Origin: Ilumatobacter coccineus YM16-304
GTDB lineage: Bacteria > Actinomycetota > Acidimicrobiia > Acidimicrobiales > Ilumatobacteraceae
Assembly: GCF_000348785.1 (NCBI RefSeq)
Contig: NC_020520.1
Coordinates: 1,054,001-1,118,000, forward strand
Reading direction: 5' to 3'
DNA length: 64,000 bases
A program made the translations under genes and the position numbers. The notes beneath the pieces were generated by a model. That model was not told where the DNA came from. It saw only the letters and a program-made list of their open reading frames with translations, and did no database searches. Below, in pieces: positions 9,995 to 64,000 of the stretch (position 1 is its first letter; each line of letters opens with the position of its first letter).

Positions 9995-9998
9995 CGCC

Positions 9999-12900
9999 GT
10001 GAACGTACGCAGTCGATGGTCGAACCTGGTGGTCACCGCATTGGTCGGTGCCGCCGTCGTAGTGATTCCGGTGGCGTCTGCCTCCGCTGCCCCGACCGGC
10101 GTCGAGCCGTCATCATCGGCCGTGAGCGAGGCCGCTGCGCAGACCGCGGAGACGATCGTCGTCGCCGAACGCGCCCGATTCGCCGAGACCCGCACCGGCC
10201 TGACGACGTTCGACGGCGAGTCGAACGGCATCGGACGGCTGGCGGCCGGTGACACGATCGAGATCGAGGTGGCTGGACGCGGCGAGATCCCCGCCGACGC
10301 CGCTGCCGCCCTCGTCTACGTCACCGCCGTGCGCCCGGAATCGACCGGCTACCTCACCATCTTCGACTGTGCCGAGCCACGCCCGCTCGCTTCGTCGCTC
10401 AACTACGTGCCATCGCTGCCCGTCGGCAACGAGATCGTCGCGGCGCTCTCCGACACCGGGTCACTCTGCGTCTTCAGTTTCGCGTCGACCGATCTGACCA
10501 TCGACGTCGGCGGCTTCGTGCCGGCCGCGAGCCCGCTCGTGTCGTTCGCCCCGCGCCGCATCGTCGACACGCGCGACGGCTCCACCACGTACGACGGGGA
10601 GGCCCAAGGCGGCGGCCGGACCACACCGGGCGAGCCCGTCACGGTCGACATCGCCGGCCGCATCGGGATCCCCGAAGGCGTCGATTCCGTGCTGGCCAAC
10701 ATCGCGGCCGTGCGTCCCGACGGCCCGGGCAACCTCGTCGCGCACCCGTGTCTCGCCACGCCGCCGACCGCGTCGTCGCTCAACTACGTCACCGATACCA
10801 CGCGAGCCAACGAGTTGCTCCTCGACGTCGACGGCAACGGCAACGTGTGTGTCGAGACCACGACGTCGGTCGATCTCGTGATCGACGTCGTGGGGTATGT
10901 GCCGACCGGAACCAACCTGCGCAATCAGCCGCCGGTTCGGCTCGTCGACACGCGCGACATCGGTGACACGATCGACGGCACCTTCGAAGGCGAGGGACGC
11001 CGACTCGGCGACACCGAGTACCGGGTTCGAGTCGCTGGGCGCGGTGGCATTCCGGCAGGGGCCAGCGCAGCCCTGTTGAACCTCGTCGTCGTCCAGCCCG
11101 ACGGGTTCGGATACGCGACCGTGCACCCGTGCGAGGAACAGCGACCCGTGGTCGCGTCGATGAACTACAGCCCGGGCGTGACCGGCGCCAACGAGATCTT
11201 TGCCGAGTTCGATGCGGCCGGCGACGTCTGCATCTACACCTCGAGCGGCGCGCATCTCGTCGTCGACGGGTCGGGCTACGTGGCGCCGATCAACGTCGGC
11301 GTCGACGAGACCGATCTGTCGATCAGTGCGTCGAGCGCGCCCGATCCGGTCGATGCCGGCGAGCCGCTGACCTACACGGTCGCCGTCACGAACAACAGCT
11401 CGGTCGCGGCGACCGGCGTGGCCGGCTTGGTCACGCTGCCGAGCGGTGTCGTGTTCCGCACCACCACTGGCTGCATCGAAGATCCGAGCGGAGCGCCGTC
11501 GTGCACCATCGGCGAGCTCGCGGCCGGCGCGACCGTGACCTACGAGATCGATGTCGACGTCGACGCAGCAGCCGCCGGAACGCTGGTCGCGAACTTCTCG
11601 GTGCTGTCCGATCAGGTCGACTCCGAACCGTCCGACAACGCGACTGCGGTGTCGACGGCGGTCGACGCCCTCGTCGTCGACGACCCGCCGGTCATCACGG
11701 CGCCGGTGTCGTCGGCGTTGTCGGTGTCGGAGAACTCGACGTTGGTGGTCGATGTGGAGGCGTCGGATCCCGAGGGTGACGTGGAGGGTGCTGGTCTGTC
11801 GTATTCGTTGTCGGGTCCGGATCAGGGGCTGTTTGCGATCGATGGGTCGGGTGTGTTGTCGTTCGTGTCGGCTCCTGATTTCGAGGCGCCGGGTGACAGT
11901 GGTGGCGACAACGGCTACTCGGTGACCGTGACGGTGACCGACTCGGGTGCGCTGACCGACTCGCGTGCGCTGTCGGTGAACGTCACCGACGTCAACGAAG
12001 CCCCGACGGTCACGGCGCCGGTGTCGTCGACGGTGTCGGTGTCGGAGAATTCGTCGTTGGTGGTCGATGTGGAGGCGTCGGATCCCGAGGGTGACGTGGA
12101 GGGTGCTGGTCTGTCGTATTCGTTGTCGGGCCCGGATCAGGGTCTGTTCGCGATCGATGGGTCGGGTGTGTTGTCGTTCGTGTCGGCTCCTGATTTCGAG
12201 GCGCCGGGCGACAGTGGTGGCGACAACGGGTACTCGGTGACCGTGACGGTGACCGACTCGGGTGCGCTGACCGACTCGCGTGCGTTGTCGGTGAACGTCA
12301 CCGACGTCAACGAAGCCCCGATCGTCACGACGACGGCGGGGTCGACCTCGTTCACCGAGGGCGATTCGCCCACCGTGGTCGACGGCGGCGTGTCCGTCAG
12401 CGACCCCGACGGTGACCTGCTCGACGCCGCGACGGTCACCATCAGCGCCGGATTCGAGACGAGCGTCGACACGCTGTCCGCGTCGGCATCGGGTGGCATC
12501 GTCGCCGGCGACATCTCGTACGCGCCGACGACCGGGGTGCTCACGATCGACCCGGCCACCGCTCAGTCGGCGGCCGACTTCCAGGCCGTGCTCCGGACCG
12601 TCACCTTCGCCAACGCGAGTTCGACTCCGAGCACGGCGAATCGCACGATCACGTTCAGCGTCGACGACGGCGCACTCGCGTCGGCCGGCGCCGACAAGAT
12701 CGTCAACGTCAGCGGCGTGAACTTCGATCCGGTGCCCACCAACGCGACGATCAGCTACAACGCGATCGGCAACACGTTGCTGCGCGTCGACGGCGCCGAT
12801 GCCGACGACCACGACACACCGGTCGCTGGTCGCGTCGCGTCGACGACCGACACCACCGACGCACTGGCCAAGGCGGCGCCCACCGACGCCGACTCGGCGG

Positions 12901-30925: not shown

Positions 30926-32428
30926 TCAGAAGGGCAGGACCTTGGTGACGGTGTCGTCGCTCCCGTCGATGACGAAGAGGTTCGTGCCGTTGAACATGAT
31001 TCGGCCCGGGTTCGACCCGAGTTCGATGGTGCTCACCGCGGCTCGATTGCGCGGGTCGACGACGTGGGCCACGTCGTCGGTCGAGTCGGTCACGTACAGG
31101 AAGTTGCCGTCGTAGGCGATGTGGCCGGCGCTGCTGCCCACGGTGAAGGTGTCGATCACCGTCAGCGTGACCGGGTCGATGACGGTGACGACGTTGGTGA
31201 AGAAGCCGCTCGCGACGTAGACGTACTGGCCGTCGTGGACGATGGAGTTGGGGCCCGGGTCGACGGCGATCTCCGACCCGACGAGCGTGTCGGTCGCCGT
31301 GTCGATCACGTACACGTCGTTGTTCTGCCCGTCGGTGACGTACATGTACTCACCGTCGGTCGCAAAACCAGCGTGGGACGCGGTGACCGAGGTCGTGATC
31401 GTCGCGACGACGGCGTTGGTCGCGGTGCTGATCACCGAGACCGATCCCTGGTTGCCGACGTAGATCTTCCCGTTGGCGAATCCAATGCCTCTCGGGCTGA
31501 CGCCGACGGGTATCGGGCTGCCGACGATGGTCTCGGTCGCCGGGTCGACGACGATGACGGTGTTCGAGTCGGTCGTCACGTACATGTGTGTGCCGTCGTA
31601 CGCGATCCCGCGGGGGCTCGTGCCGAGCGGGAGCGTGCCGGTGACGATGTTGGCGACCGGGTCGACGATCGACAGATCGTCGTCGTCGTGGTTGGCCACG
31701 AAAACTCTGGTCCCGTCGCTGGCGATGCCCTGTGGCAGGTCGCCCACGTCGATGACGGCCGGACGCCCGGGGTCGTCGTACCACTGCCCGAGCAGAATCT
31801 GCTCGTCGCTGATGCGATTGGGCGCGCCGTCTGCACCGTCTGCGCCGGGCGCTCCGGCCGGACCAGGGGTGCCGTTCGATCCGGCGGGCCCAGCGGGTCC
31901 TGCGGGGCCGGTGCTCCCGACGTTCGACGACGGCTGGTAGTAGCCGTTCACGTCCATGACGACGTGGACCTCGCCGAACGCGTTGTACACGTTGAATTCG
32001 CCGGACGGCGACAGGGGGACGTTCGCGGCGTTGGGTGTGGGCGCTTGGCCGGCGACGTAGTTGAGGTTGGCGGTACCGGGGTTGTCGACGTCGCCCGGGA
32101 AGAGCGTCATGAAGCTTCGGGCTGTCGGCGCGATGGCGACGGTGTTCGTCGCGATCGCTGTCGCCGATGCCGGGATCTCGCAGGTGCTGTCGGCGTCGGT
32201 GCCGTCGTGGGCTCCGAAGGTTGCGGTGTCGTCGGCCGCGATCTTGGTCGATCGCGGCCCGACGTTGACGTCGCCGGGTCGGGTGTCGATCAATCGACAC
32301 GGGGTGATGGGGACGAAGACGGTCTCGTCGACCGCGTCGGCACCGCGAACGAAGTGCGTACCGACTCCGATCGATCCCAGTGCCAGCGCGCCGGCGGTTC
32401 CTACGGTGACAGCTCGTGAGTGTTTCAT
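30926..32428 (-). CDS. Secreted RLVDTR-head, collagen-linker, beta-propeller protein (paralogue 1)
   Basis: The 500-residue secreted protein has a signal peptide (VGTAGALALGSIGVGTHFVRGA). An RLVDTR-type head (about 38-168) starts at ITPCRLIDTRPG and ends at DVNGYYQPS. A collagen-like linker of G-x-y triplets (GPAGPAGPAGSNGTPGPAG) and the conserved hinge NRISDEQI follow. The rest is a YVTN-type propeller of about seven blades (IVDPVANIVTGTLPLG, YDGTHMYVTTDSN, VIDTATDTLVG). No wall anchor is visible. Binding to a ligand or matrix is inferred from the architecture. Four paralogues lie within 14 kb, the nearest (32558-34048) just upstream on the same strand. Confidence 0.85.
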   Translation of the reverse strand: MKHSRAVTVGTAGALALGSIGVGTHFVRGADAVDETVFVPITPCRLIDTRPGDVNVGPRSTKIAADDTATFGAHDGTDADSTCEIPASATAIATNTVAIAPTARSFMTLFPGDVDNPGTANLNYVAGQAPTPNAANVPLSPSGEFNVYNAFGEVHVVMDVNGYYQPSSNVGSTGPAGPAGPAGSNGTPGPAGAPGADGADGAPNRISDEQILLGQWYDDPGRPAVIDVGDLPQGIASDGTRVFVANHDDDDLSIVDPVANIVTGTLPLGTSPRGIAYDGTHMYVTTDSNTVIVVDPATETIVGSPIPVGVSPRGIGFANGKIYVGNQGSVSVISTATNAVVATITTSVTASHAGFATDGEYMYVTDGQNNDVYVIDTATDTLVGSEIAVDPGPNSIVHDGQYVYVASGFFTNVVTVIDPVTLTVIDTFTVGSSAGHIAYDGNFLYVTDSTDDVAHVVDPRNRAAVSTIELGSNPGRIMFNGTNLFVIDGSDDTVTKVLPF

Positions 32429-32502: not shown

Positions 32503-32566
32503 CACGGTGTCAGTGCGTCACGGTGTCAGTGCGTCACGGTGTCAGCGCGCCACGGTGTCAGCGCGT
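32503..32566. repeat. Four tandem copies of a 16-bp unit
   Basis: CACGGTGTCAGTGCGT occurs twice exactly, followed by two copies with one or two changes (ending AGCGCGC and AGCGCGT). The last copy overlaps the stop codon of paralogue 2. The unit contains GGTGTCAG, half of the GGTGTCAGACACC palindrome seen at 3.7 and 19.1 kb. It is a simple tandem repeat in the gap between two surface-protein genes, and copy number may vary between strains. Confidence 0.9.
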
Positions 32567-34048
32567 CAGGAGTTTTCTCAGTGTGTCGTCGGCGAGCGAC
32601 GAGACGTAGAGGTTGGTTCCGTCGAACATGACGTCGTATGCGCCGGGGATGTCGATCGGCGCCCCGACCACCTCGTCGATGGTCGGGTCGATCGCCAGGA
32701 CGGTGCCGTCGTTGTTGTTGGCGACGTGGAGCAGCGAACCGTCGTAGGCGAGGGTCACGGGGGCATCGCCGACGGCGATGGTGTCGATGATCGTGTGACT
32801 CGTCGTGTCGACGACCGAGACGTCGTCGCCCTGCACGTTCGCGACGTAGACGTGTCTGCCGGTGAAAGCGATTCCGGAGGGGTCGTCGCCGGCGGGAATC
32901 GTTGCGACGATCGCGTTCGACGTGGTGTCGACGACCTGGATCGAGTCGGCCGACTGGTTGGCGATGTAGAGCTCGTCGCCGGTGAAGGCGAGTCCGTTCG
33001 GTCCGTTGTCGGTGTCGATCGGCGTTCCGGTGAGTGCGTTCGAGGTGGGGTCGATCATCATGACGCGGTCGAGGCTCTGGGCCGTGACGTAGACGAGGTC
33101 GTCGCCGGTCGTGACGGCCGACGGGTTCGATCCGCCGGGGAGTGTGATGGTGGTGACGACGCTCAGTTCGTCGGCATCGATCACGGTCACCGAGGCGTCG
33201 AGTTGGTTGACGACGTAGATCATCCCGAAGCCGTAGGCGATGCCGAACGGGCCGTCGCCGACTGCGATCGTCGCGACGACATCGGCCGAGTCCGGATCGA
33301 CGACGCTGACGTCGTCGGACTCGTAGTTCGCTGCGAACACGTGGTCCGGGCTCGCTGCGGTGTCGAAGGGGAGGTGTCCCACGGCAACGACGCCCTCTCG
33401 CCCGGGGTCGAGGTCCCATCGCAACGAGGCGATCGCTTCGTCGTCGATCCGGTTCACCGGACCGGGTGGGCCGTCGGCGCCCGCCGGACCTGCGGGGCCG
33501 GCCGGGCCCGGGCTGCCGATCGACGACGACGGCTGGAAGTAGCCGCTGACGTCGACCACGACGTTCACGTCACCGAACGCGTTGTACACGCTGAAGCGAC
33601 CGTCGCTCGACAGCGGGATCGTCGCAGCGTTGGGTGTCGGCGCCTGGCCGGCGACGTAGTTGAGGTTGGCCGTGCCGGGGTTGTCGACGTCGGCGGGGTG
33701 CAACGTCATGAACGACCGGGCGGTGGGCGCGATCGCGACGACGTTGGCGACGATGGCCGTGGCGTCGGTCGGCAGTTCGCAGTCGCTGTTGCCGTCTCCC
33801 GTCGCCCACGCGGTGAACGTCGCGGTGTCGTCCGCGCCGATGGGTGTCGCCCGCGGGCCGACGTTGGTCGACGGCCCTGGCCGCGTGTCGACCAGACGGC
33901 ACGGCGTGACCGGCACGAACACGGTCTCCGCCTGGTCGGCGCCGGCGCCTGTGCCGGTTGCACCGAGCACGCCTCCGAGGGCAGACGCTCCCAGCGCCGC
34001 GGTGGCAAAGCCGAGTGTGGTCAGCGCGATGCGTGTTCGTCGTGGCAT
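32558..34048 (-). CDS. Secreted RLVDTR-head, collagen-linker, beta-propeller protein (paralogue 2)
   Basis: The 496-residue product has a basic N-terminus (MPRRTRIALTT) and a hydrophobic signal segment (FATAALGASALGGVLGA). The head domain runs VTPCRLVDTRPG to DVSGYFQPS. Short G-x-y triplets (GSPGPAGPAGPAGADGPPG) and hinge NRIDDEAI lead into a YVTN propeller with repeats of VVDTTSNAIVATIPAGDDPSG type. ATG at 34048 is preferred over an upstream TTG. The tandem 16-bp repeat overlaps its stop. Confidence 0.85.
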   Translation of the reverse strand: MPRRTRIALTTLGFATAALGASALGGVLGATGTGAGADQAETVFVPVTPCRLVDTRPGPSTNVGPRATPIGADDTATFTAWATGDGNSDCELPTDATAIVANVVAIAPTARSFMTLHPADVDNPGTANLNYVAGQAPTPNAATIPLSSDGRFSVYNAFGDVNVVVDVSGYFQPSSSIGSPGPAGPAGPAGADGPPGPVNRIDDEAIASLRWDLDPGREGVVAVGHLPFDTAASPDHVFAANYESDDVSVVDPDSADVVATIAVGDGPFGIAYGFGMIYVVNQLDASVTVIDADELSVVTTITLPGGSNPSAVTTGDDLVYVTAQSLDRVMMIDPTSNALTGTPIDTDNGPNGLAFTGDELYIANQSADSIQVVDTTSNAIVATIPAGDDPSGIAFTGRHVYVANVQGDDVSVVDTTSHTIIDTIAVGDAPVTLAYDGSLLHVANNNDGTVLAIDPTIDEVVGAPIDIPGAYDVMFDGTNLYVSSLADDTLRKLLTR

Positions 34049-36114: not shown

Positions 36115-39100
36115 ATGAAACGACTGTCACGACGCTCGCGAGTGCTCGCTCCGGCACTCGCACTTCTCGCCGCGGTGGGCGGACTCGCCATCGCTCCGGA
36201 CCGACCTGTCGCCGCCCTGACGTCGGCCGAGAACCTCCCGGTGTCGGTCAACGTCTCGCGAACCAACCAGTCGAGCGCGGGCGACCGGACCCTCCACGAT
36301 GCACCGATCTCGTTCGCCCAGTTCGACGACTCGGCCAACACGCTCAACAGCGCCACCCTGTCGTGGAACCTGAGCATCACCGGCGAGCGAAGCGGCGGAT
36401 CGAGGGGCACCCTCAGGCTCTCGTACGGCGGCGACCTCGCGGCCGAGGCCCTGACCTACGACACACCGCAGAAGACGTTCACCCTCGTCGGGAGTGCCCC
36501 GGTCACATCGGGTCACCTCGGCACCGGGACGTTCTCGCCGAGCAACCTCCTCATCAGGTACACCGGCATCAGCGGAACCTTCCCCTGGGGCGTCGAGGCA
36601 GCCGTCACCGGCACGGTCACGATGACCTACGACTACACCGCCGGGGTCGCCGACACCACGCCGCCGGTCGTCACCGTTCCGTCCAACGTGGTCGCCGAGC
36701 AGACGAGTATGGCCGGGGCCGTCGTGACCTACAGCGGCCAGACGTTCACCGACAACGTGGGGGTGACCTCGTCGGGTTGCACGCCGGCATCCGGTTCGAC
36801 ATTCGGGCCCGGCCCGACGACGGTCACCTGCACCGCCTCCGACGCCGCCGGGAACACGGCGAGCGACACGTTCACCGTCCTCGTCCAGGACACCACCGAC
36901 CCGGTGGTGGGGATCATCGTCTCCTCGCCCGTCGAGGCGACCGGTCCGGGCGGAGCGCCGGTCCCGTTCTGGGTGTCGGTCGCCGACGATTCGGCAACAG
37001 CATCGTTGGACTCGTGTTCGCCGGCCTCCGGGGAGACGTTCCCGATCGGCTCGACCACGATCTCGTGCACGGCGAGCGACGCCTCGTCCAACACCGGCGG
37101 CGACACGGCGACCGTGGTCGTTCAAGACACGACCGACCCGACCGTCGTCGTGCCGAGCAACATCGTTTCCGAAGCGACCGGTCCGTCGGGTGCCACCGTC
37201 TCGTACCCCGCTGCGACCTACAGCGATGCGGTCGGCGTGGTCAGCTCCGGTTGTAGCCCGGCGAGCAACACGTCCTTCTCGATCGGCGCCAACACGGTGA
37301 CCTGCTCCGCCACCGACAACGCGGGCAACACCGGTTCCGACAGCTTCCTCATCACGGTGGAGGACACGACCGACCCGGTCGTCGTGGCGCCGAGCAACAT
37401 GGTTCGCGAAGCGACGAGTTCGGCAGGCGCGGTGGTCACGTATCCCGCTGCCACGTACAGCGACGCGGTCGGCGTGGTGAGCTCGGGGTGCAGCCCGACA
37501 TCGGGATCCACCTTCTCGATCGGTGTGAACACCGTCGTGTGCAACGCGGCCGACGCCGCCGGCAACACGGGAACCGACACGTTCACCATCACGGTGAGCG
37601 ACACCACGCCGCCCGTCGCCTCGGTGATCGTGAGCTCGCCGGTCGAAGCCACCGGCTCATCCGGAGCCACGGTGACCTACACCGTCGACGCCACCGATGA
37701 CGACAGCATCGACTCGGTCGTGTGCAACCCGCCGTCGGGCTCGACGTTCGGTATCGGCACGACCACGATCAACTGCACGGTCACCGATCCGTCGTCGAAC
37801 TCGACGTCGGCGAGCGGCTCCGTCACCGTGGTCGACACGACCGCTCCGACGATCGCCGTTCCTGCCGACTTCGGCGTGGAGCAGCAATCTGCCGCGGGTT
37901 CGGTGGTGACGTACAGCGCGACGTTCACCGATGCGGTCGGCGTGACGAGTTCGTCGTGTGTGCCGGCGTCGGGGTCGGCGTTCGGGCCTGGAGCGACGAC
38001 GGTGACGTGTGAGGCCGAGGATGCTGCGGGCAACGATGCGAGTGATTCATTCGTCGTCACCGTCTCCGATTCGGTCGCCCCTGCGATCGTGGTGCCGAGC
38101 GATTTCGGTGTGGAGCAGGAATCTGCTGCTGGTTCGGTGGTGACGTACAGCGCGACGTTCACCGATGCGGTCGGCGTGACGAGTTCGTCGTGTGTGCCGG
38201 CGTCGGGGTCGGCGTTCGGGCCTGGAGCGACGACGGTGACGTGTGAGGCCGAGGATGCTGCGGGCAACGATGCGAGTGATTCATTCGTCGTCACGGTCTC
38301 GGACTCGGTCGCTCCGACGATCGTGGTGCCGAGTGACTTCGAGGTGGAGCAGGACTCGGCCGCCGGTTCGGTGGTGACGTACAGCGCGACGTTCGCCGAT
38401 GCGGTCGGCGTGACGAGCTCGAGCTGTGCTCCGGCATCGGGTTTGACGTTTTCTCCTGGCCCGACCCTCGTGACGTGCGTGGCCGAGGATGCCGCGGGCA
38501 ACGACGCCAACGACTCGTTCGTCGTGACCGTCCGTGACACGACCGCTCCGGCTGCGTCGATCGTCGTCGACGACACGTTCGAGGCCACCGGCCCGAGCGG
38601 TGCGACGGTGACCTACACCGTCGACGCCACCGATGTCGACGGGATCGACTCGGTCGTGTGCACTCCCTTGTCGGGCAGTGTGTTCCCGATCGGTTCCACC
38701 GCCATCGACTGCACCATCACCGACGCATCGTCGAACGAGACCAGGGCCATGGCGACCGTGACGGTCGAAGACACCACCGAGCCGACCGTGACCGTCCCGA
38801 CCGACGTGGTGGCCGAGGCGGCAGGCCCCGACGGGGCTGTCGCCGACTACAGCGGACAGAGCTTCGTCGACGTCGTCGGCGTCGAGTCGTCGGGGTGCAC
38901 CCCGGCTTCGGGGACGACGTTCGCGATCGGTGCGACCACGGTGACGTGCAGTGCCTCCGATGCCGCGGGCAACACCGGATCGGCAACGTTCACCGTCACG
39001 GTGAGCGACACCACCGCTCCGACTGCGACCACTCCCGATGACGTGGTGGCCGAGGCGGCGGGCCCAGACGGCGCGACCGTCGCGTTCGCCGTGCCGGCCG

Positions 39101-39852
39101 ACGATGCCGTCGGCGTCGATGCCATCGTCTGCGACCACGAGCCGGGGTCGACGTTCGCCGTGGGCACCACCGAGGTGACCTGCTCGGTCGCTGACGCGGC
39201 GGGCAACAGCACCGCCGTGAGCTTCTCGATCACGATCGTCGACACCACGCCGCCGGCTGTCGTCGACGCGCCGACGATCGTCGCCGAAGCGACCGGCCTC
39301 GACGGGGCGCCGGTCACCTTCGACCTCGACGTCTCCGACGTCGTCGGTGTGGCGACGGTGGAGTGCGATCCGCCTTCGGGTTCGACCATGGGCATCGGCA
39401 CACACGCGGTGACCTGCACGATCACCGATGCGGCCGGCAACTCGACGTCGACGACCTTCGACGTCACCGTGGCCGACACGACCGCTCCGGCCGTCCCGTC
39501 GGACGCGCCTGAACTGAGCCAGTCGTTCGTGTTGCCGGCGGGTGCGCAGAGTGGCGTGATCAACTACGAACTGCCCGACATCGTGGAGGCAGCGGGCGCC
39601 GTCGAGGTGGCCTGCACCCCGGCGTCGGGGAGCACGTTCGGCGTCGGTGTGCACGACATCGAGTGCACGGCGACCGATGGTGCCGGCAACTCGACGCCGT
39701 TCACGATCGAGATGGTCGTCGCCGGTGCGTCCGGCGGTCCGTCGCTCCCGGCCACGGGTCGCGGGGTCCACCCGTGGCTGCTCCTCGGAGCATTCGCCAT
39801 CGCCCTCGGCACGTTCCTCTCGGGGTCGAGCCGGCGGGTCCGCCGCAGCTGA
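36115..39852 (+). CDS. LPATG-anchored surface protein with 13 HYR repeats
   Basis: The 1245-residue product has a signal peptide (MKRLSRRSRVLAPALALLAAVGGLAIAP). A unique N-terminal beta-rich domain follows (about 35-178), then 13 HYR repeats of roughly 75-80 residues (about 179-1204). Each begins D-T-T-x-P or a variant, and most carry a pair of cysteines (for example SSGCTPASG and TVTCTASDAAGN). The C-terminus is a classic sorting signal: LPATG (1211-1215), a hydrophobic helix (WLLLGAFAIALGTFL) and a basic tail (RRVRRS). It should therefore be joined to the cell wall by a sortase, and a class E sortase gene lies 18 kb upstream. HYR domains are Ig-like and linked to adhesion. Confidence 0.92.
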   Translation: MKRLSRRSRVLAPALALLAAVGGLAIAPDRPVAALTSAENLPVSVNVSRTNQSSAGDRTLHDAPISFAQFDDSANTLNSATLSWNLSITGERSGGSRGTLRLSYGGDLAAEALTYDTPQKTFTLVGSAPVTSGHLGTGTFSPSNLLIRYTGISGTFPWGVEAAVTGTVTMTYDYTAGVADTTPPVVTVPSNVVAEQTSMAGAVVTYSGQTFTDNVGVTSSGCTPASGSTFGPGPTTVTCTASDAAGNTASDTFTVLVQDTTDPVVGIIVSSPVEATGPGGAPVPFWVSVADDSATASLDSCSPASGETFPIGSTTISCTASDASSNTGGDTATVVVQDTTDPTVVVPSNIVSEATGPSGATVSYPAATYSDAVGVVSSGCSPASNTSFSIGANTVTCSATDNAGNTGSDSFLITVEDTTDPVVVAPSNMVREATSSAGAVVTYPAATYSDAVGVVSSGCSPTSGSTFSIGVNTVVCNAADAAGNTGTDTFTITVSDTTPPVASVIVSSPVEATGSSGATVTYTVDATDDDSIDSVVCNPPSGSTFGIGTTTINCTVTDPSSNSTSASGSVTVVDTTAPTIAVPADFGVEQQSAAGSVVTYSATFTDAVGVTSSSCVPASGSAFGPGATTVTCEAEDAAGNDASDSFVVTVSDSVAPAIVVPSDFGVEQESAAGSVVTYSATFTDAVGVTSSSCVPASGSAFGPGATTVTCEAEDAAGNDASDSFVVTVSDSVAPTIVVPSDFEVEQDSAAGSVVTYSATFADAVGVTSSSCAPASGLTFSPGPTLVTCVAEDAAGNDANDSFVVTVRDTTAPAASIVVDDTFEATGPSGATVTYTVDATDVDGIDSVVCTPLSGSVFPIGSTAIDCTITDASSNETRAMATVTVEDTTEPTVTVPTDVVAEAAGPDGAVADYSGQSFVDVVGVESSGCTPASGTTFAIGATTVTCSASDAAGNTGSATFTVTVSDTTAPTATTPDDVVAEAAGPDGATVAFAVPADDAVGVDAIVCDHEPGSTFAVGTTEVTCSVADAAGNSTAVSFSITIVDTTPPAVVDAPTIVAEATGLDGAPVTFDLDVSDVVGVATVECDPPSGSTMGIGTHAVTCTITDAAGNSTSTTFDVTVADTTAPAVPSDAPELSQSFVLPAGAQSGVINYELPDIVEAAGAVEVACTPASGSTFGVGVHDIECTATDGAGNSTPFTIEMVVAGASGGPSLPATGRGVHPWLLLGAFAIALGTFLSGSSRRVRRS
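37858..38560 (+). repeat. Tandem 234-bp units in the HYR gene
   Basis: The unit at 37867 recurs at 38101, a period of 78 codons, with a stretch of roughly 160 bases essentially identical (37900-38060 versus 38134-38294). A third, diverging copy begins near 38335. They encode HYR repeats 6, 7 and 8. The near-identity at silent positions points to recent duplication or gene conversion. Confidence 0.88.
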
Positions 39853-40029: not shown

Positions 40030-41574
40030 TCAGAGTGGGAGGTGTCGTGCGACGACGTATCCGGCCGACCAGAGGGATGCGCCGTCGAAGTGCATGGACC
40101 GCGGAGAGATGTCCGGGATGGCGCCGACCTTGCTCCGAGTGGTGGGGTCGACGATGATGATTTCGGCTTCGGTCGGGTTGCCGACGTAGAGCCAGCGCCC
40201 GTCGTACTCGATCGGTCCGACGTCGACGCTCGCCCCGATCGCGAACGCGGAGCCGACCTCCAGACCCGTGGTCGGGTCCATCGTGCGCATCACCTGGTCA
40301 TCGATGTCCCAGCCGTAGAGCAACGTGCCGTCGGAGGCCAGGTGGTGGAAATCCTCGGCGATGCCGGTCAGGGTCTGCACGTCGAGATCGGCATCGATCT
40401 CGACCATCTGATCGGCGGCGCTGTTGATCGCGACGAAGACGTCGGTTCCGACCGCAGCGATGCCGCGGGTGGGGGCCGCCAAGCCGATGTCGTCGACGAC
40501 ACCAGGCGTCGACGGGTTGGCGTCGACCTGCTGACCCGTCGCGAGATCGACGACGGTGACGAACGAGTCGACGGAACCGCCGACGTACAGCCGACCGTTG
40601 GCCACGGCCGCGTACTCGGCACCGGTGGGCGCCGCGATCGGCGCGCCGATGGGTGCCAGCGTGGCCAGGTCGAAGCGTTGGATCGAACCGGGCGACGAGA
40701 ACGGACTCGACGGATCGAACGCCGTGACGTAGACGTCGTCACCGAACACGGTGATGTCACGTGCACGGCCCTGTGCGGGGCTCGCGCTGCCCGCCGCGAG
40801 CGTCGCTCCGGTGTCGATGGCGAGTCGCTCGATGCCGCCGTTGAAGCCGATCAGGAGGTCGGTGCCGTCGGACCACACGGCCTCCGACTGCAACCCTGTC
40901 ACGTCGTATGTTCGGAATCGGCCGGGGTCGCGATCCCAGCGGCCTTCGAGGATGTCGTCGAGCGGCATCCGGTTCGGGTCGGGAGCGTCACCGGGAGGGC
41001 CTTGTGCGCCGGTGGCTCCCGGTTGCCCAGGGTCGCCCTTCGGGCCCGGGTCGCCGGCGGGAGCGTCGCTCGTCGCCGGCTGGTAGTAGCCGTTGATGTC
41101 GATGACGACGTGGACGTCGCCGAACGCGTTGAACACGTTGAACGTGCCCGTCGGTGACAGCGGAACGTTGGCGGCGTTGGGTGTGGGGGCTTGGCCCGCG
41201 GTGTAGTTCAGGTTGGCGGTGCCGGGGTTGTCGACATCGCCTGGGTACAGCGTCATGAAGCTGCGCGCCGTGGGAGCGATCGCAACGGTGTTGGTGGCGA
41301 TCGCGGTGGCGGTTGCCGGGATGTCGCAGGGGGAGTCGGCGTCGCCGGTGCCCCACGCGGTGAAGGTGGCGGTTTCGTCGGGGCCGATCTTGGTGTCGCG
41401 TGGGCCGACGTTGATGTCGCCGGGGCGGGTGTCGACGAGTCGGCACGGGGTGATCGAGACGAAGATCGATTCCGACGATTCACCGGCACCCGACACGAAC
41501 TGGGTACCGATCACGGCACCGGTCACGGCGAGTGCGGCGACCGTGGTGAGTTGAGCAAGGCGGGTCGACATCAT
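40030..41574 (-). CDS. Secreted RLVDTR-head, collagen-linker, beta-propeller protein (paralogue 3)
   Basis: The 514-residue product starts at ATG 41574 (ATG-ATG tandem; 41571 also possible). The start overlaps the stop of the next paralogue. A signal segment (LTTVAALAVTGAVIGTQFVSGA) precedes the head domain ITPCRLVDTRPG to DINGYYQPA. The head is nearly identical to that of paralogue 4: four differences in about 133 residues. The linker is charged collagen-like (GPKGDPGQPGATGAQGPPG). The propeller is clearly different from its neighbours, with blades such as LDIATLAPIG-like and VVDLATGQQVDANPS. It is the last gene of a three-gene coupled operon. Confidence 0.85.
   Translation of the reverse strand: MMSTRLAQLTTVAALAVTGAVIGTQFVSGAGESSESIFVSITPCRLVDTRPGDINVGPRDTKIGPDETATFTAWGTGDADSPCDIPATATAIATNTVAIAPTARSFMTLYPGDVDNPGTANLNYTAGQAPTPNAANVPLSPTGTFNVFNAFGDVHVVIDINGYYQPATSDAPAGDPGPKGDPGQPGATGAQGPPGDAPDPNRMPLDDILEGRWDRDPGRFRTYDVTGLQSEAVWSDGTDLLIGFNGGIERLAIDTGATLAAGSASPAQGRARDITVFGDDVYVTAFDPSSPFSSPGSIQRFDLATLAPIGAPIAAPTGAEYAAVANGRLYVGGSVDSFVTVVDLATGQQVDANPSTPGVVDDIGLAAPTRGIAAVGTDVFVAINSAADQMVEIDADLDVQTLTGIAEDFHHLASDGTLLYGWDIDDQVMRTMDPTTGLEVGSAFAIGASVDVGPIEYDGRWLYVGNPTEAEIIIVDPTTRSKVGAIPDISPRSMHFDGASLWSAGYVVARHLPL
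41150..41490. repeat. Head-domain DNA repeated at 42685-43025
   Basis: The DNA encoding the head of paralogue 3 matches that of paralogue 4 at an offset of 1535 bp. Matches include a run of 62 identical bases (41297-41358) and another of over 50 bases (around 41368-41423). The propeller-coding parts do not align in this way. This is strong local homogenisation. Confidence 0.88.
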
Positions 41575-43109
41575 CGTGGCAACAATCGTTGGATCGTGTT
41601 GGCTGCAGGGTTGGACACCCACACGCTGGTGCCGTCGAAGTAGATGTCTTCAGGGTCATCGACGGGAACCGACCCGACGACGGTGTGTGTGACCGGGTCG
41701 ATCACCATGACCGTGTCCGCGGTGGCCTCCGTGAGGTACAGCCACCGACCGTCGTAGGCGAGTTCTCGTGGAGCGGGCGAGGCGGGAATCCCGGTACCGA
41801 TGCCAGGGTCGATGTCGACGACCTGACGGCTTGCGACCTCGACCTTGTTCACCGAGCCCTCGCCTCCGTTCGTTGCCCAGACGTAGTCGCCTGTGCCGAT
41901 CATTCCGGTGATGCTGGTGCCGACCGACACGAAGCCGGCGGGGGTCGAGAGCGAATCCAGTTCGACGATCGCGATGTTGCCGTCATAGCCCGACACCCAG
42001 GCCTCGTTGCCGACGATGACGACCTGCTCGGGTTCGGTGCCGACGGAGACCAACTCGACGGCGCGCGTCGCGAGGTCGATGACGGCGACCTGGTCGCTGG
42101 CGTTGAGTGAGACGACCAACTGCGTGTCGCCGACGGCGAGATCCGCAGGGAGGGTCGATGGATCCAGCACGATGTCTGCGCCGTCGCGCTGCAGCGTTGT
42201 CGGGTCGATGACGCTGACGGTGTGGAAGTTGATGTTCGCCGTGTACAGCCGGCCGTTGCCGTAGGCGATCCCGAGCGGTCCGGATCCGGGATCGAGGGCG
42301 ATGGGTTGGGTCCCCGGCGTCGTCGGGTCGGCATCGACCTGCTCGTTCGTGGACGGGTCGATCACGATCACGCCGTCGGTTGTGGTGACGAACAGGTACG
42401 TCCCGTCGGACGCGAAGGCTTTCGGTCGAGATTCGACAGCGATAGTGACGGGGTCGGCGGGATCCTCGAACCAGCGCAGTTCGGCGATCTGCTCGTCGCT
42501 GATGCGGTTCGAGACGCCATCCCTGGCGTCGGGGCCGACGGAGCCGTTGACGCCGTTTCGTCCGGCATTGCCCTGCGGTCCGGTCGGACCCTGCGGCCCG
42601 ACGTTCGACGACGGTTGGTAGTAGCCGTTGACGTCGATGACGACATGGACCTCGCCGAAGGCGTTGAAGACGTTGAACGTGCCGGTGGCCGACAGGGGGA
42701 CGTTGGCGGCGTTGGGAGTAGGCGCTTGGCCGGCGGTGTAGTTGAGGTTGGCGGTGCCGGGGTTGTCGACGTCTGCCGGGTAGAGCGTCATGAAGCTGCG
42801 TGCGGTGGGGGCGATGGCAACGGTGTTGGTCGCGATCGCGGTGGCGGTTGCCGGGATGTCGCAGGGGGAGTCGGCGTCGCCGGTGCCCCACGCTGTGAAG
42901 GTCGCGGTTTCGTCGGGGCCGATCTTGGTGTCGCGTGGGCCGACGTTGATGTCGCCGGGTCGGGTGTCGACGAGTCGGCACGGGGTGATCGAGACGAAGA
43001 TCGATTCCGATGATTCACCGGCGCCCGAGGCGAACTGCGTGCCGACGGCGACACCCGACGCGGCCAGGGTCACAGCGACCGTTGCGGAGATGAGTGTGCG
43101 GCGACTCAT
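41571..43109 (-). CDS. Secreted RLVDTR-head, collagen-linker, beta-propeller protein (paralogue 4)
   Basis: The 512-residue product starts at ATG 43109, overlapping the stop of paralogue 5 by 4 bp. A signal segment (VAVTLAASGVAVGTQFASGA) is followed by ITPCRLVDTRPGDINVG and the rest of the head, ending DVNGYYQPS. The linker GPQGPTGPQGNAGRNGVNG and hinge NRISDEQIAELRW follow. The propeller has repeats such as VIDPSTNEQVDADP, IDLATRAVELVSVG and YDGRWLYLTEATADTVMVID. It is the middle gene of the coupled trio. Confidence 0.85.
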   Translation of the reverse strand: MSRRTLISATVAVTLAASGVAVGTQFASGAGESSESIFVSITPCRLVDTRPGDINVGPRDTKIGPDETATFTAWGTGDADSPCDIPATATAIATNTVAIAPTARSFMTLYPADVDNPGTANLNYTAGQAPTPNAANVPLSATGTFNVFNAFGEVHVVIDVNGYYQPSSNVGPQGPTGPQGNAGRNGVNGSVGPDARDGVSNRISDEQIAELRWFEDPADPVTIAVESRPKAFASDGTYLFVTTTDGVIVIDPSTNEQVDADPTTPGTQPIALDPGSGPLGIAYGNGRLYTANINFHTVSVIDPTTLQRDGADIVLDPSTLPADLAVGDTQLVVSLNASDQVAVIDLATRAVELVSVGTEPEQVVIVGNEAWVSGYDGNIAIVELDSLSTPAGFVSVGTSITGMIGTGDYVWATNGGEGSVNKVEVASRQVVDIDPGIGTGIPASPAPRELAYDGRWLYLTEATADTVMVIDPVTHTVVGSVPVDDPEDIYFDGTSVWVSNPAANTIQRLLPR

Positions 43110-44662
43110 CGCGGAAGAATCCTCTGCACCGTGTTGTCCAAGGAGTTCGACACCCAGACACTGGTGCCGTCGAACATGGCTCCCCACGGCCCAGCGCCGA
43201 CGGGAATCGTTCCGACGACGGTCTGGAACAGCGGATCGATCACATCGACCGTGTTGGAGTAGTAGTTGGCGAGGTAGACCGACGTGCCGTCGAAGGCAAC
43301 GGCGGTCGGCGAGGTCGGTTCTCCGAGGAGGATCGTGTTCGTCACGGTGTTCGTCGAAGGGTCGATGACCGACACGCTGCTCTCGCCCGAGGTGTTGGCG
43401 AAGTTGGTGTTGGCGACCCAGATCTGGCCGGCGCCGTAGGCGACATCGTTGGGACCGAGGCCGACCGTGATCGACGTCGCTCCCGATCCGAGGTCGTTCG
43501 GGTCGATCACCGACACGGTGTTGCCGAGCGCGTTCGCCACGTAGACGTCGGTCGCCGAGCGGGCGACACCGCGTGGCGACGCGCCGACCGAGATCGTTGC
43601 GACGACCGTCCCGCTGGCGAGGTCGACCACGCTCACCGAGTTGCTGGCGGCGTTGGCGACGAACAGCACGTCGTCGACCACCGTCATGCCGGCCGGGATG
43701 ACCCCGACGGTGACCGACGTGCCGGTGAACGCCCGCGTCGCCGGATCGATCGTGCGCACCGTTCCGGGCGAGACGCCATCCGGGTGACCGACAGCGACGT
43801 AGACGAGTCCGTCGTGCACGTGGAGATCATTGGTGTAACCGTCGACCGGCACTCGGGCGACCACGGAGTTCGTGCCGGGGTCGATCACCGTCACCTCGCT
43901 GCTACCGGTGTTGCTGAAGTTGGCCACGTAGACCACGTCGCCATCGGTGACCATCGCATGCGGGACGTCGCCGGTGGGCCCGATGGTGGCCGGCTTGGCG
44001 GGGTCGAGTTCCCACCGTTCGTCGCGCATGTCAGCCGGGTCGAATCGGTAGGGGTCGCCAGAGGCACCAGCGGGTCCGACCGCACCATCGGTTCCGTCGG
44101 GCCCGGTGGGACCCTGGTCTCCCTGCGGGCCCTTCGCGCCGACGTCGTCGCTCGGTTGGAAGAACCCGTTGACGTCGATCACGACGTGGACCGTGCCGAA
44201 CGCGTTGAACACGTTGAACTCACCGCTCGCCGACAGCGGCACGTTCGCGGCGTTGGGAGTGGGAGCCTGGCCGGCGGTGTAGTTGAGGTTGGCGGTGCCG
44301 GGGTTGTCGACGCCGGCCGGGTAGAGCGTCATGAAGCTGCGTGCGGTGGGGGCGATGGCGACGGTGTTGGTGGCGATCGCCGTCGCGGTCGCGGGGATGT
44401 CGCAGGGCGAGTCGGCGTCGCCGGAACCCCACGCCGTGAAGGTGGCCGTCTCCTCGGCGCCGATGGCGGTTGCACGCGGGCCGACGTTGACATCGTCACC
44501 AGGTCGGGTGTCGATGAGGCGGCAGGGGGTGATCGACACGAACACCGACTCGGCCGACTCGCCGGCACCCGAGGCGATCTGCGTGCCGACGACAGCGCAG
44601 GCAGCGAAGATCGACGCGGCCGCCGCGATGTTCCACCCCCGTCCCTGCACGCGGCCGACCAT
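43106..44662 (-). CDS. Secreted RLVDTR-head, collagen-linker, beta-propeller protein (paralogue 5)
   Basis: This 518-residue protein is the first gene of the trio. ATG at 44662 (MVGRVQGRGWN) is preferred over an upstream TTG. A signal segment (AAAASIFAACAVVGTQIASGA) leads to ITPCRLIDTRPG and a head ending DVNGFFQPS. The linker is GAKGPQGDQGPTGPDGTDG. The propeller carries clear YVTN blades (VVDLASGTVVATISVGASPRGVARSA-type, VYVANALGNTVSVID). The promoter must lie in the 96-bp gap shared with the divergent DUF3107 gene. Confidence 0.85.
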   Translation of the reverse strand: MVGRVQGRGWNIAAAASIFAACAVVGTQIASGAGESAESVFVSITPCRLIDTRPGDDVNVGPRATAIGAEETATFTAWGSGDADSPCDIPATATAIATNTVAIAPTARSFMTLYPAGVDNPGTANLNYTAGQAPTPNAANVPLSASGEFNVFNAFGTVHVVIDVNGFFQPSDDVGAKGPQGDQGPTGPDGTDGAVGPAGASGDPYRFDPADMRDERWELDPAKPATIGPTGDVPHAMVTDGDVVYVANFSNTGSSEVTVIDPGTNSVVARVPVDGYTNDLHVHDGLVYVAVGHPDGVSPGTVRTIDPATRAFTGTSVTVGVIPAGMTVVDDVLFVANAASNSVSVVDLASGTVVATISVGASPRGVARSATDVYVANALGNTVSVIDPNDLGSGATSITVGLGPNDVAYGAGQIWVANTNFANTSGESSVSVIDPSTNTVTNTILLGEPTSPTAVAFDGTSVYLANYYSNTVDVIDPLFQTVVGTIPVGAGPWGAMFDGTSVWVSNSLDNTVQRILPR

Positions 44663-45052: not shown

Positions 45053-46018
45053 ATGAACTCGCTTCTCGACCTCGACCTTCTCTGGGTGACCGGGAAGGGC
45101 GGCGTGGGCAAGACCACCGTGGCGGCCGCCATCGCCGAGGTCGCCGCGTCGTCGGGGCGACGCGTGCTCGTCTGTGAGATGGACGCGAAGGGCGCCCTCG
45201 CCACGGCCTTCGAAGTCGGCGAGCTCGAGTTCGACCCGACCGAAGTGCAGCCGAACCTGCACGCCATGACGATGAGCACCGAGGACTCCCTGCGCGAGTA
45301 CCTCCGACTCTTCGTCAAGATCCCGTTCCTCGGACGCATCGGCCCCCTCGCCTCCACGTTCGACTTCGTCGCCGACGCCGCTCCAGGCGTCAAGGAGATC
45401 CTGGCCGTCGGCAAGCTCTGCTACGAGGTGCGAGAGCGGCACTACGACCTCGTCATCGTCGACGCCGAAGCCTCCGGCCACGTCGTCAGCCAGATCGGTG
45501 CGCCGAAGGTCATCGCCGATCTCGTGCAGGTCGGCCTCGTCAAAGACCAGACCCAGTGGATGCTCGACATCCTCGAAGACCCCACCCGTACGGGTGTCGC
45601 CGTGGTCACCACGCCGGAGGAGATGCCGGTGACCGAGTCGATCGAGCTGCTCGAGAAGCTGACCGCCGAAACCGGCAGTCATCCTCGAGTCGTCGTCGCC
45701 AACCGCGTGTTGCCGGCCATGTTCAACCGCCGCGAGCAGCCGATCGCCCAGCGGCTCGGCGAGGTGCTGCCGATCCTCACCGACGCGATCGGGCCGGGCG
45801 TCGACGCGGTGGTCGAGGCGGGCACGATCGTCGAGGCTCGGCGGACCATCGGCGCCGGACACCTCGATCGTCTCCGCACCGCGATCGCCGAGTTCGACCT
45901 CACCGTCGACGACGCGCCACTGCCGATCCTCACCGTCCCCGAACTCTTTGGACGATCACACGGTCGTCGCGTCGTGTCGCTCGTCGCCGACTCCCTGAGT
46001 GACGAGCTCGACGTATGA
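45053..46018 (+). CDS. ArsA/Get3-like ATPase, first of a pair
   Basis: The 321-residue protein has a deviant Walker A (VTGKGGVGKTTVAAA, near residue 12), VCEMDAKGALATAF, and a switch region VIVDAEASGHVV where classical ArsA has DTAPTGH. It pairs with the next gene, overlapping by ATGA. The arrangement matches the mycobacterial Rv3679-Rv3680 pair, described as a heteromeric, Get3-like ATPase. There is no sign of arsenite genes nearby. A role in membrane-protein or metabolite handling is more likely than arsenic efflux. Confidence 0.85.
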   Translation: MNSLLDLDLLWVTGKGGVGKTTVAAAIAEVAASSGRRVLVCEMDAKGALATAFEVGELEFDPTEVQPNLHAMTMSTEDSLREYLRLFVKIPFLGRIGPLASTFDFVADAAPGVKEILAVGKLCYEVRERHYDLVIVDAEASGHVVSQIGAPKVIADLVQVGLVKDQTQWMLDILEDPTRTGVAVVTTPEEMPVTESIELLEKLTAETGSHPRVVVANRVLPAMFNRREQPIAQRLGEVLPILTDAIGPGVDAVVEAGTIVEARRTIGAGHLDRLRTAIAEFDLTVDDAPLPILTVPELFGRSHGRRVVSLVADSLSDELDV

Positions 46019-47199
46019 GCCAGCGCGACCTCGACTCCCTGCTCGCCAGCCGCGAGATGATCCTGGTGGCCGGGTCGGGCGGCGTCGGCAAGACCACCGT
46101 CGCCGCCGCGATGGGCATCGCCGCGGTACAACGCCATGCCGGCAAGGTGCTCGTCCTCACCGTCGACCCGGCACGTCGCTTGGCCACGGCACTCGGTCTC
46201 GAAGCTTTCGGCAACACGCCCGTACGCATCGACCCCAAGGCGCTGAAGCGGGCCGGCATCACCGCCCGCGGTGAGCTCCACGTGGCGATGCTCGACACGA
46301 AGGCCGGGTGGGACGAACTCATCGAGCGGCATGCCCCCGATCACGCCACGCGCGACGCGGTACTCGCCAATCCGCTCTACCAGAACATCACCGGTCGCTT
46401 CGTGCGCAGTCACGACTACCTGGCGATGGAGCAGCTGCACGATCTGCACGCCACCGGCGAGTACGACCTCGTCATCGTCGACACGCCGCCGTCGCGCAAC
46501 GCGCTCACGATCCTCGATGCTCCGAGTCAGATGGCCGAGTTCTTCGGGAGTCGCTTGCTTCGTTGGCTCACGGTGCCGTACCGCTCGCGGCTGTTCACCG
46601 TCGCTTCCAAGCCGTTCTACAAGGTCGCCGACGGCGTGCTCGGCTCCCGCTTCCTGCAAGACATCGCCGACTTCTTCATCCTGTTCCAGGCGATGGAGAA
46701 GGGGTTCGTCACACGCGCCCGAATGGTCGAGGCGCTGCTCGTCGATCCGCGTACCGCGTTCGTCATCGTGTCGACCCTCGAAACGGCGCCGAGCCACGAA
46801 GCGGCATTCCTCGCCCGCGAACTCGAAGACCGCCACATGCCGCTGGGGGCGATCATCGCCAACCGCGTCCTCCCGTCCGATCTGGCCGAGTCGCAGTCGC
46901 GCCGTGCCGCCGAAGCACTGCTCGCCGCCGTCGCCGACAACGACTCCACGCTCGCCCACGACGTGGCCGACGCATTCGTCGACGGAGCGCCGGCCGACGC
47001 CGACGTCAAGCGCGTGCGGCGGGTGTTGCGCCAGCTCGCGACGCGCTTCGACGACCTGTCGATGGTGGCGGCACGCGAAGCCGACCGGCGGGCAGAACTG
47101 GCCGAGATCGCCCCGCTGATGCTCGACATCCCGTGGCTGTCGGGCGACATCCACGACCTCGCCGGACTCCAGAATTTGGCGGAGTACCTGCGCGACTGA
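46015..47199 (+). CDS. ArsA/Get3-like ATPase, second of a pair
   Basis: The 394-residue partner has Walker A VAGSGGVGKTTVAAA near residue 17, VDPARRLATALGL and VIVDTPPSRNALTILDAP, which is the more typical ArsA switch. A helical insertion (about 170-230, SRLFTVASKPFYKVADGVLG) may form a hydrophobic surface. It should dimerise with the preceding product. The PdtaS-like kinase gene follows after 25 bp, so the three may share a transcript. Confidence 0.87.
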   Translation: MSQRDLDSLLASREMILVAGSGGVGKTTVAAAMGIAAVQRHAGKVLVLTVDPARRLATALGLEAFGNTPVRIDPKALKRAGITARGELHVAMLDTKAGWDELIERHAPDHATRDAVLANPLYQNITGRFVRSHDYLAMEQLHDLHATGEYDLVIVDTPPSRNALTILDAPSQMAEFFGSRLLRWLTVPYRSRLFTVASKPFYKVADGVLGSRFLQDIADFFILFQAMEKGFVTRARMVEALLVDPRTAFVIVSTLETAPSHEAAFLARELEDRHMPLGAIIANRVLPSDLAESQSRRAAEALLAAVADNDSTLAHDVADAFVDGAPADADVKRVRRVLRQLATRFDDLSMVAAREADRRAELAEIAPLMLDIPWLSGDIHDLAGLQNLAEYLRD

Positions 47200-62877: not shown

Positions 62878-63999
62878 TCAGGTGATGTGGGCGACGATGT
62901 CGACGGTGAGGTGGGTGTTGCTGCTCGTGTAGAGGCAGATCGTGCCGGCGGAGGAGAGCCGGGCGATGATTTCGTTGCCGCCGTTGACGCCGGTGATGTG
63001 GTTGAGCGACGACGCAGTGGGCAGCGTGGGTTCGCAGGGGTGGACGGTGACGAAACCGGTGCTTTCGGGCGCGATGGCGGTGATGTTGAGCACGGCGGCG
63101 GTTGCGTCGGTCGGGACGTTCGAGCGTCCGCTGATCTGGAGCGTGTATTCGTCGTCGGCCGTGCGTTTGCCGATGGCTTGGTGCTCGCTGTCGATGGTGA
63201 CGCCGGAGGGTCGGGTGTCGAGAAGTCGGGCTGGGCCGTTCGGGGTCACGGTCGTGCCGGCGGGGAGGTAGCCGACGACGTCGGCTGACAGATGGGTGGT
63301 GGTGGAGGTGAAGAGGCAGAGGTCGCCGGATTCGTCGAGGGTGGCGATGAGCTCGTTGCCTCGGTTGGTGCCGGCGACGTAGTTGAGTGACGCCGCGTTG
63401 GGTGGGGTGTCGAGGCAGGGGTGGGCGGTGATGTAGCCGGTGCCTTCGGCGCCGATGGCGGTGATGTTGACGATGACGGCTGCTGCGTCGGTCGGCACGT
63501 CGCCGCGTCCGGCGATCGGGATGGTGGTGGTGGAACCGGCGGCGGGCTTCGTGCCGCCGACGGCGGTGTCGTCGATGGTGGTGCCGGAGGGTCGGGTGTC
63601 GAGGAACCGGCCAGGAGTGATGGGCGTGACCGGGGAGCCGTTGGCGACGTAGCCGGTGACGTCGACGGCCAGGTGCGATGCCGCCGAGGTGAACAGGCAG
63701 ATGGTTCCGGTTGCCGAGAGCGGGGCGATGATCTCGTTGCCGAGGTTGACGCCGGCGGTGTAGTTGAGCGACGACGCGGTGGGGAGCGGTGTGACGCAGG
63801 GGTGGACCGTGACGTAGCCGACGCTCTCGGGGAAGATGGCGGTGACGTTGATGATGACGGCTTCGGCGCCGTCGGGGACGTCGCCGCGTCCGGTGATCTG
63901 GACGGTGTACTCGGATCCGGCGTCGCGTTTGCCGGCGGCTTCGAACTGGCCGTCGAGGGTGGTGCCGGAGGGTCGGGTGTCGACGAACCGTGACGGCGA
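62878..63999 (-). CDS. RLVDTR-repeat surface protein, C-terminal part (5' end beyond window)
   Basis: The frame is open without stop from the right edge to TGA at 62878, giving the last 373 residues of a larger protein. It consists of three tandem RLVDTR-type domains, each starting RFVDTRPSGTTLDG, RFLDTRPSGTTIDD or RLLDTRPSGVTIDS. Each carries HPC, a SLNY/SLNH-x-x-G element, a GTICLFTS-like or GDLCLFTS element and an ending such as VDVTGYVAN. The last one ends directly in TVDIVAHIT, so there is no sorting signal. The same domain forms the N-terminus of the giant protein at 9999 and the heads of the five propeller proteins. Confidence 0.85.
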   Translation of the reverse strand, partial: SPSRFVDTRPSGTTLDGQFEAAGKRDAGSEYTVQITGRGDVPDGAEAVIINVTAIFPESVGYVTVHPCVTPLPTASSLNYTAGVNLGNEIIAPLSATGTICLFTSAASHLAVDVTGYVANGSPVTPITPGRFLDTRPSGTTIDDTAVGGTKPAAGSTTTIPIAGRGDVPTDAAAVIVNITAIGAEGTGYITAHPCLDTPPNAASLNYVAGTNRGNELIATLDESGDLCLFTSTTTHLSADVVGYLPAGTTVTPNGPARLLDTRPSGVTIDSEHQAIGKRTADDEYTLQISGRSNVPTDATAAVLNITAIAPESTGFVTVHPCEPTLPTASSLNHITGVNGGNEIIARLSSAGTICLYTSSNTHLTVDIVAHIT

Positions 64000-64000
64000 C

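Follow-up and report, generated by a model that had tools for sequence, protein, structure and literature searches.

Probable patches of gene conversion and a putative trimer-forming head domain in tandem propeller-tailed proteins of Ilumatobacter coccineus

Five paralogous minus-strand genes, here designated A to E, are located within a 64,000-nucleotide window of the genome of Ilumatobacter coccineus YM16-304 (NC_020520.1, positions 1,054,001 to 1,118,000 of the forward strand), which is a single contig of 4,830,181 bases. Each encodes an N-terminal signal-like stretch, a head of 137 residues, between 7 and 11 collagen-like GXY triplets and a propeller-like tail. A preliminary description of this DNA had singled out the third and fourth paralogues (C and D), proposing that gene conversion probably homogenised their heads while their propellers diverged, and reasoning that constant heads on divergent tips would follow if the head bound a fixed partner and recombination shuffled the tips. 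The analysis presented herein makes it probable that the tandem genes E, D and C carry patches of conversion in their heads and that these heads act as trimer-forming modules, with proteins containing three tandem heads acting as natural single-chain trimers. Indeed, such a trimer-forming role is a better-supported explanation for the constancy of the head than binding of a fixed partner.

Results

Silent sites point to exchange of head patches among tandem genes

The heads of C and D are 97% identical in amino acid sequence (4 differences over 136 aligned codons). At the DNA level they have four uninterrupted stretches of identity in common, of 62, 56, 50 and 26 bases, with silent sites included. 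Their tails, in turn, are 25% identical in amino acids over 324 aligned codons. The near-identical heads, long shared runs and clearly different propeller parts reported earlier are therefore all reproduced. A run of at least 62 bases arose by chance in 3 of 20,000 simulations, in which synonymous codons were drawn at random according to the usage of these genes.

At positions where C and D share an amino acid, the same codon is used in 105 of 130 cases within the head as compared to 45 of 78 outside it (Fisher p = 4e-4). This rate is 57/61 in the 5′ head tract (0.93, with 0.55 expected at saturation), shows some excess in the middle of the head (24/34, 0.71; 0.57 expected) and little in its last third (24/35, 0.69; 0.63 expected), and is near saturation in the tail (45/78, 0.58; 0.52 expected). 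The 5′ tract departs from the remaining head both in same-codon use (57/61 versus 48/69, Fisher p = 6e-4) and in DNA differences (4/186 versus 27/222, Fisher p = 1e-4). Silent divergence, examined in windows as the preliminary description had suggested, is thus not uniform between C and D, and the pattern named there as refuting conversion was not observed. For comparison, a control pair of tandem genes elsewhere in the genome (F and G) exhibited an even proportion of silent differences (pS), at 0.32 in the head and 0.35 in the tail, which fits plain duplication.

Sites within the 5′ tract are free to vary, since D and E differ there at 36 of 186 positions and C and E at 35 of 186. Along the three parts of the head, D and E use the same codons in 30/52, 30/34 and 21/33 cases, complementing the C-D pattern. 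At informative sites D matches C and E in a ratio of 33:1 in the 5′ part and 14:17 afterwards (p = 2e-6 for the split). In addition, a run test on silent sites for D and E gave 0 to 12 of 5000 shuffles across four gene sets, and a test on all sites for C and D gave 25 to 187 of 5000. These comparisons support a mosaic structure for the D head, in which 186 base pairs (bp) of C-like sequence are followed by 108 bp of E-like sequence, as would be expected for short-patch conversion between tandem neighbours. Some observations weigh against it: the break point of the 33:1 and 14:17 split was chosen post hoc, the C-D run test on silent sites only never fell below 0.05 in the four gene sets, and a 3SEQ-like permutation reached a p value no lower than 0.048.

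An explanation without conversion would be that the heads of C and D derive from a recent duplication, followed by replacement of the tail in one of the two genes, such that their likeness reflects descent. The tail of C is indeed the odd one out, with a branch of 3.0 in the tail tree and 23-29% amino acid identity to the other four tails, and unlike tails are known on this head subfamily. However, descent predicts even silent divergence, whereas same-codon use falls from 57/61 in the first part of the head to 24/35 in the last and D turns E-like in mid-head, and we regard this scenario as unlikely. Still less probable is that selection alone, on the head protein, its codons, its RNA or an antisense frame, has kept the heads alike with no exchange of DNA. 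It would account for most of the head outside of the tracts, where same-codon rates approach saturation and where C and D differ at 3 of 38 amino acids in the last third. Yet in the 5′ tract silent identity is 93% for C and D as compared to 58% for D and E and 60% for C and E, all under the same constraint. Codon or RNA constraint and open antisense frames were likewise set aside as causes of the silent identity, given the differences that E shows at these positions.

Judged from these alignments, it is one patch of the head that appears homogenised at silent sites and not the whole head. The earlier proposal of conversion therefore holds for short patches (186 bp between C and D, 108 bp between D and E) but does not extend to the entire head; since the last third lies near silent saturation, selection rather than conversion would be what keeps that part alike.

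Like heads and changing tails elsewhere

Among 181 heads in the same genome, 22 pairs are at least 80% identical in DNA across 250 or more aligned bases. Ten of these lie within one gene and 12 between genes that are 1.5 to 10.6 kilobases apart, and several of these 12 pairs are strongly diverged in the protein outside the head. The three tandem heads of one locus (L063, genome 1642929-1644926), which is also a circular permutant, are DNA-identical over 285-351 aligned bases, which suggests a very recent expansion or conversion within one gene.

The ratio of tail to head tree distances ranged from 0.5 to 5.8 for 35 between-genome pairs and from 5.4 to 144.8 for 10 within-genome pairs, with C and D the highest. 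Two points count against reading too much into these trees. Due to the long tail branches of A to E, slow heads and fast tails both contribute to a high ratio, and the tail trees decide nothing (approximately unbiased (AU) test p = 0.28 for grouping A with locus L031; the five own tails were grouped with support 63/75). Measured along the trees, the closest relative of every A-E tail is that of L031 and the closest relative of every head is a paralogue from the own genome, but heads reject a grouping of A with L031 at p = 0.034 only. Conflict between heads and tails across species was consequently dropped as proof of conversion, as the L031 tail branch is short and the AU tests on tails are undecided. 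The same head subfamily bears YVTN propellers in A to E and L031, a different repeat tail in F and G, and another unlike tail in L032, from which it appears that over longer times tips do change on this subfamily. It is present in two of nine other genomes of the genus (G009 and G004), with one head each.

Heads occur in ones or threes

Heads were counted in the open reading frames (ORFs) surrounding the matches of an own-genome search, for which the best 150 of 213 candidates were scored and 149 matches listed; one truncated duplicate ORF was removed. At least 79 proteins of I. coccineus contain the head, 51 with exactly three in tandem and 28 with exactly one, and none of the 79 proteins counted contains two or four. 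The restriction to 150 of 213 candidates is a point against this count, which may miss heads. With permissive settings, the weakest of the 181 heads had an expectation value of 1.7e-10 and the next match 0.066; this match, as well as two further weak ones, corresponds to a terminal strand of one of the permuted triples described below. The linkers that join tandem heads are mostly 8 residues long.

Counts from elsewhere came from 42 loci from an 84,980-species collection plus two genus relatives, a set biased by the use of a triple as query: among 38 complete ORFs there were 31 threes, 6 ones and 1 two, and eight more ORFs running off an end comprised 6 threes, 1 one and 1 two. Matches in other genomes include Ilumatobacter and Acidimicrobiia assemblies. 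A mixed single-head profile recovered 17 threes, 11 ones and 1 two in one other genus and 7 threes, 9 ones and no twos in another, and had no match in one genome (G001) at an expectation value of 1e-5. The sole two-head protein among the 38, from a Chloroflexi metagenome assembly (L112), has two perfectly identical tandem heads and is perhaps a collapsed repeat. A further two-head frame (G022 C166) contains a TGA, and those of L123 and L195 are in fragments at contig or locus edges. One triple head (L096) is on a contig binned as Candidatus Saccharibacteria, which may be misbinned.

Stalks follow most single heads, and some triples are circularly permuted

A stalk directly follows the head in 21 of 28 single-head proteins versus 0 of 51 triples (Fisher p = 1.6e-13). 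Twelve of these stalks contain at least six GXY triplets and nine contain an HxHDD motif. HDDRY-type motifs are a mark of trimeric phage fibres, and one weak tail-fibre family match (expectation value 0.047) overlapped such a motif. On the opposing side, 7 of the 28 single-head proteins have neither scored stalk motif, including some with C-terminal heads. Several C-terminal single heads are positioned behind a common 'LWYC...GTPGxW' stretch (genome 177285, 420928, 423906 and 2400736), and some such proteins have GVYG-type repeats that are perhaps fibre-like. When single-type heads served as queries, which biases the outcome, 44 loci from 31 other genomes yielded 49 of 50 ORFs with one head (some loci overlap, such that a few ORFs are counted twice); 12 were followed by collagen-like and 12 by HxHDD stalks, and some of the 25 others look coiled-coil-like by eye.

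Four triples (genome 1640564, 1642929, 3312161 and 3322724) are circularly permuted, with head 1 lacking its P-x-R-L-x-D-T-R strand and one such strand placed behind head 3. Two of the four end strands were found by an automatic motif flag and the other two were read by eye. Each permutant thereby keeps three DTR strands, as expected of a closed three-part ring.

Predicted structures resemble single-chain C1q/TNF-type trimers

No Pfam or NCBIfam model matched within the heads of A to E, and none of 47 single heads (41 of 114 listed heads plus 6 from the window) matched Pfam at an expectation value of 0.01. For triples, aligned with 5 of 37 references omitted as partial, broken or weak (L104, L116, L125, L127 and L129), family matches were isolated: no single Pfam family hit more than 1 of the 33 members, and no NCBIfam family more than 3. 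C1q and TNF models were absent from the Pfam matches of heads and triples, and the head is not classed in the C1q/TNF superfamily.

The trimer hypothesis was recorded before structure prediction was run. AlphaFold modelled a tandem triple of the window as three beta-sandwiches packed as a trimer, with a predicted local distance difference test score (pLDDT) of 94.4 and a predicted template modelling score (pTM) of 0.90. In VIA-align the whole of this model aligned, over 298-315 residues, with C1q-, adiponectin- and TNF-type trimers in one chain, which made up the top five: 4zch (Z 15.0), 5hzf (13.5), 5kca, one 807-residue chain (12.9), 5hkj (12.8) and 4dou (11.2). These were followed by the fibre tip of Bdellovibrio Bd2133 (Z 9.8, over one head), with other rows below 8. 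The single head of C (pLDDT 90.6, pTM 0.85) also had the Bd2133 tip (8ond, 8ok3) as its best match, with Z 9.0 and a root-mean-square deviation (rmsd) of 2.8-3.2 over 105-111 residues, the next row scoring 7.3. Against predicted viral structures it matched phage proteins, some of them named as tail fibres. An initial analogy of the head to a two-bladed, trimerising propeller piece of the RSL/AAL kind was dropped, as the model is a beta-sandwich trimer.

Several aspects argue against this assignment. The rmsd to the single-chain trimers is 4.8-5.3, Foldseek's own ranking places the first of them (4zch) 33rd with a TM score of 0.43, the best 50 rows for the single head of C contain neither TNF nor C1q chains, and monomer predictions cannot demonstrate trimerisation of single heads. 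Nonetheless, as modelled, the head most probably serves as a trimer module, and the triples as natural single-chain trimers. The head would most likely work like a member of the C1q/TNF superfamily, with no membership claimed.

The head might instead be a binding module, for example for cell wall or glycans, with three copies providing avidity in place of a closed trimer. Carbohydrate-binding modules do appear lower down among the matches to the single head (Z of approximately 6), and TNF-like bacterial domains can be lectins, according to excerpts of two reports (PMC12914763, PMC10769870); moreover, binding and trimerisation are mutually compatible. Avidity alone, however, predicts twos and fours, which were seen in 0 of 79 proteins counted, and stalks are on single heads and not on triples. 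Circular permutation with all three DTR strands kept points to ring closure, and the pTM of 0.90 means that the copies are held in a fixed arrangement. Avidity without a closed trimer therefore seems improbable.

Features and neighbouring genes

The YVTN beta-propeller repeat model TIGR02276 (cut-off 27.85 bits) is passed by the tails of A, B, D and E and failed by that of C; it bears on these four tails and says nothing about the head. By eye, the gene between B and C (36115-39852, plus strand) encodes 1245 amino acids that include HYR-like repeats and, at the C-terminus, an LPATG-like sorting signal, and two overlapping genes at 34126-35864 (minus strand) encode a DJ-1/PfpI-type-like protein and a GlxA-type AraC-like regulator. 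Adjoining E, D and C are, again by eye, two P-loop ATPase-like genes (ArsA/ParA-like; 45053-47199, plus strand), followed by sensor-kinase-like and sigma-factor-like genes.

Table 1. Features of the window, with positions counted from its first nucleotide.
Feature	Position	Strand	Evidence
Paralogue A: signal peptide, head, 11 GXY triplets, YVTN propeller	30926..32428	-	ORF and translation; TIGR02276 138 bits; GXY run
Paralogue B: head, 7 GXY triplets, YVTN propeller	32558..34048	-	TIGR02276 126.9 bits
Paralogue C (paralogue 3 of the preliminary description): head, 8 GXY triplets, propeller-like tail under YVTN cut-off; start inferred	40030..41574	-	TIGR02276 21.5 bits
Paralogue D (paralogue 4 of the preliminary description): head, 8 GXY triplets, YVTN propeller; start inferred	41571..43109	-	TIGR02276 50.2 bits
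Paralogue E: head, 10 GXY triplets, YVTN propeller; start inferred	43106..44662	-	TIGR02276 126.1 bits
Head of A	31931..32329	-	Head alignment
Head of B	33530..33937	-	Head alignment
Head of C	41077..41487	-	Head alignment; AlphaFold of 41074-41487
Head of D	42612..43022	-	Head alignment
Head of E	44153..44566	-	Head alignment
Collagen-like stalk of C, 8 GXY	40984..41055	-	Translation
Collagen-like stalk of D, 8 GXY	42528..42599	-	Translation
Collagen-like stalk of E, 10 GXY	44051..44140	-	Translation
ATGA overlap, D stop and C start	41571..41574	-	Sequence
ATGA overlap, E stop and D start	43106..43109	-	Sequence
C side of C-D tract (4 mismatches in 186 positions, zero amino acid differences)	41299..41484	-	Head DNA comparison
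D side of C-D tract	42834..43019	-	Head DNA comparison
D side of D-E tract (D-E 5 mismatches in 108; same columns C-E 13, C-D 12)	42726..42833	-	Head DNA comparison
E side of D-E tract	44267..44374	-	Head DNA comparison
Three tandem heads near N-terminus of 2282-amino-acid ORF (9954-16802, plus strand), then DUF11-like repeats (by eye)	10146..11282	+	AlphaFold of 10122-11285; VIA-align
Second triple-head region, cut by right end of window	62884..64000	-	Genome 1116884-1118020

Discussion

We propose that gene conversion has moved short pieces of head-coding DNA among the neighbours E, D and C, leaving in the D head a C-type patch and then an E-type patch, while the remaining head is kept alike mainly by selection at the protein level and the tails have diverged to silent saturation. 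The head, on strong though indirect support, would be a trimer-forming beta-sandwich. In single-head proteins three chains would trimerise, usually together with a stalk (collagen-like, HDDRY fibre-type or coiled coil), and in proteins with three tandem heads a single chain would supply the whole trimer. For A to E the result would be three propeller tails carried by a head trimer at the N-terminus and the collagen-like stalk behind it. The heads would stay alike because trimer interfaces must match, with the propellers free to change.

The closest parallels are found among trimers of the C1q/TNF type. In C1q and adiponectin a collagen-like stretch adjoins the head, as it does in A to E, although the A-E head is N-terminal to the collagen part, unlike in C1q. 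Other differences lie in sequence models, which leave the head unmatched, and in the best protomer match, which is another fold entry. To our knowledge, single-chain C1q/TNF-type trimers are familiar as engineered molecules only; in contrast to these recombinant forms, the bacterial triples are natural genes. No description of this head or of a natural bacterial single-chain C1q/TNF-type trimer was found among titles and abstract beginnings of open-licence literature in PubMed Central (PMC).

The protomer match, Bd2133, has a fibre tip that is a trimeric beta-sandwich, and fibres of this type combine like N-terminal parts with exchanged tips, as stated in the available portion of PMC10769870, which in that portion does not describe tandem triples. 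Its sequence identity to the head of C is 12-13%, and a PDB sequence search at an expectation value of 1 returned no Bd2133 match, only three other chains at 0.41-0.75. Moreover, the Bd2133 tip is C-terminal on a beta-helix fibre, unlike the N-terminal head of A to E. The TNF-like lectins PLTL and BC2L-C (N-terminal domain) are also bacterial trimeric beta-sandwich heads, with PLTL differing as a hexamer of two trimers (PMC12914763, in excerpt); neither was found by fold search with the head models.

With their ATGA overlaps, trimer-type heads and collagen-like stalks, E, D and C may be compared to the trio of A, B and C chains of which C1q is composed. As a more speculative and rather doubtful extension, E-D-C might be a bacterial counterpart in which overlapping and probably translationally coupled genes encode chains with compatible heads and collagen-like stalks that form heterotrimers with three different propellers. 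Conversion would then keep heads interchangeable as tails diversify, and at least 51 other proteins of this genome would have settled the stoichiometry through fusion of three heads into a single chain.

The head is secreted, numbers 181 copies or more in a single finished genome and has no Pfam model that we found, and the rule of one or three predicts a trimeric structure from gene counts alone. If correct, single-chain C1q/TNF-type trimers would exist naturally, and in abundance, in bacteria, and there would be a reason why conserved, patch-converted heads are combined with varying tips.

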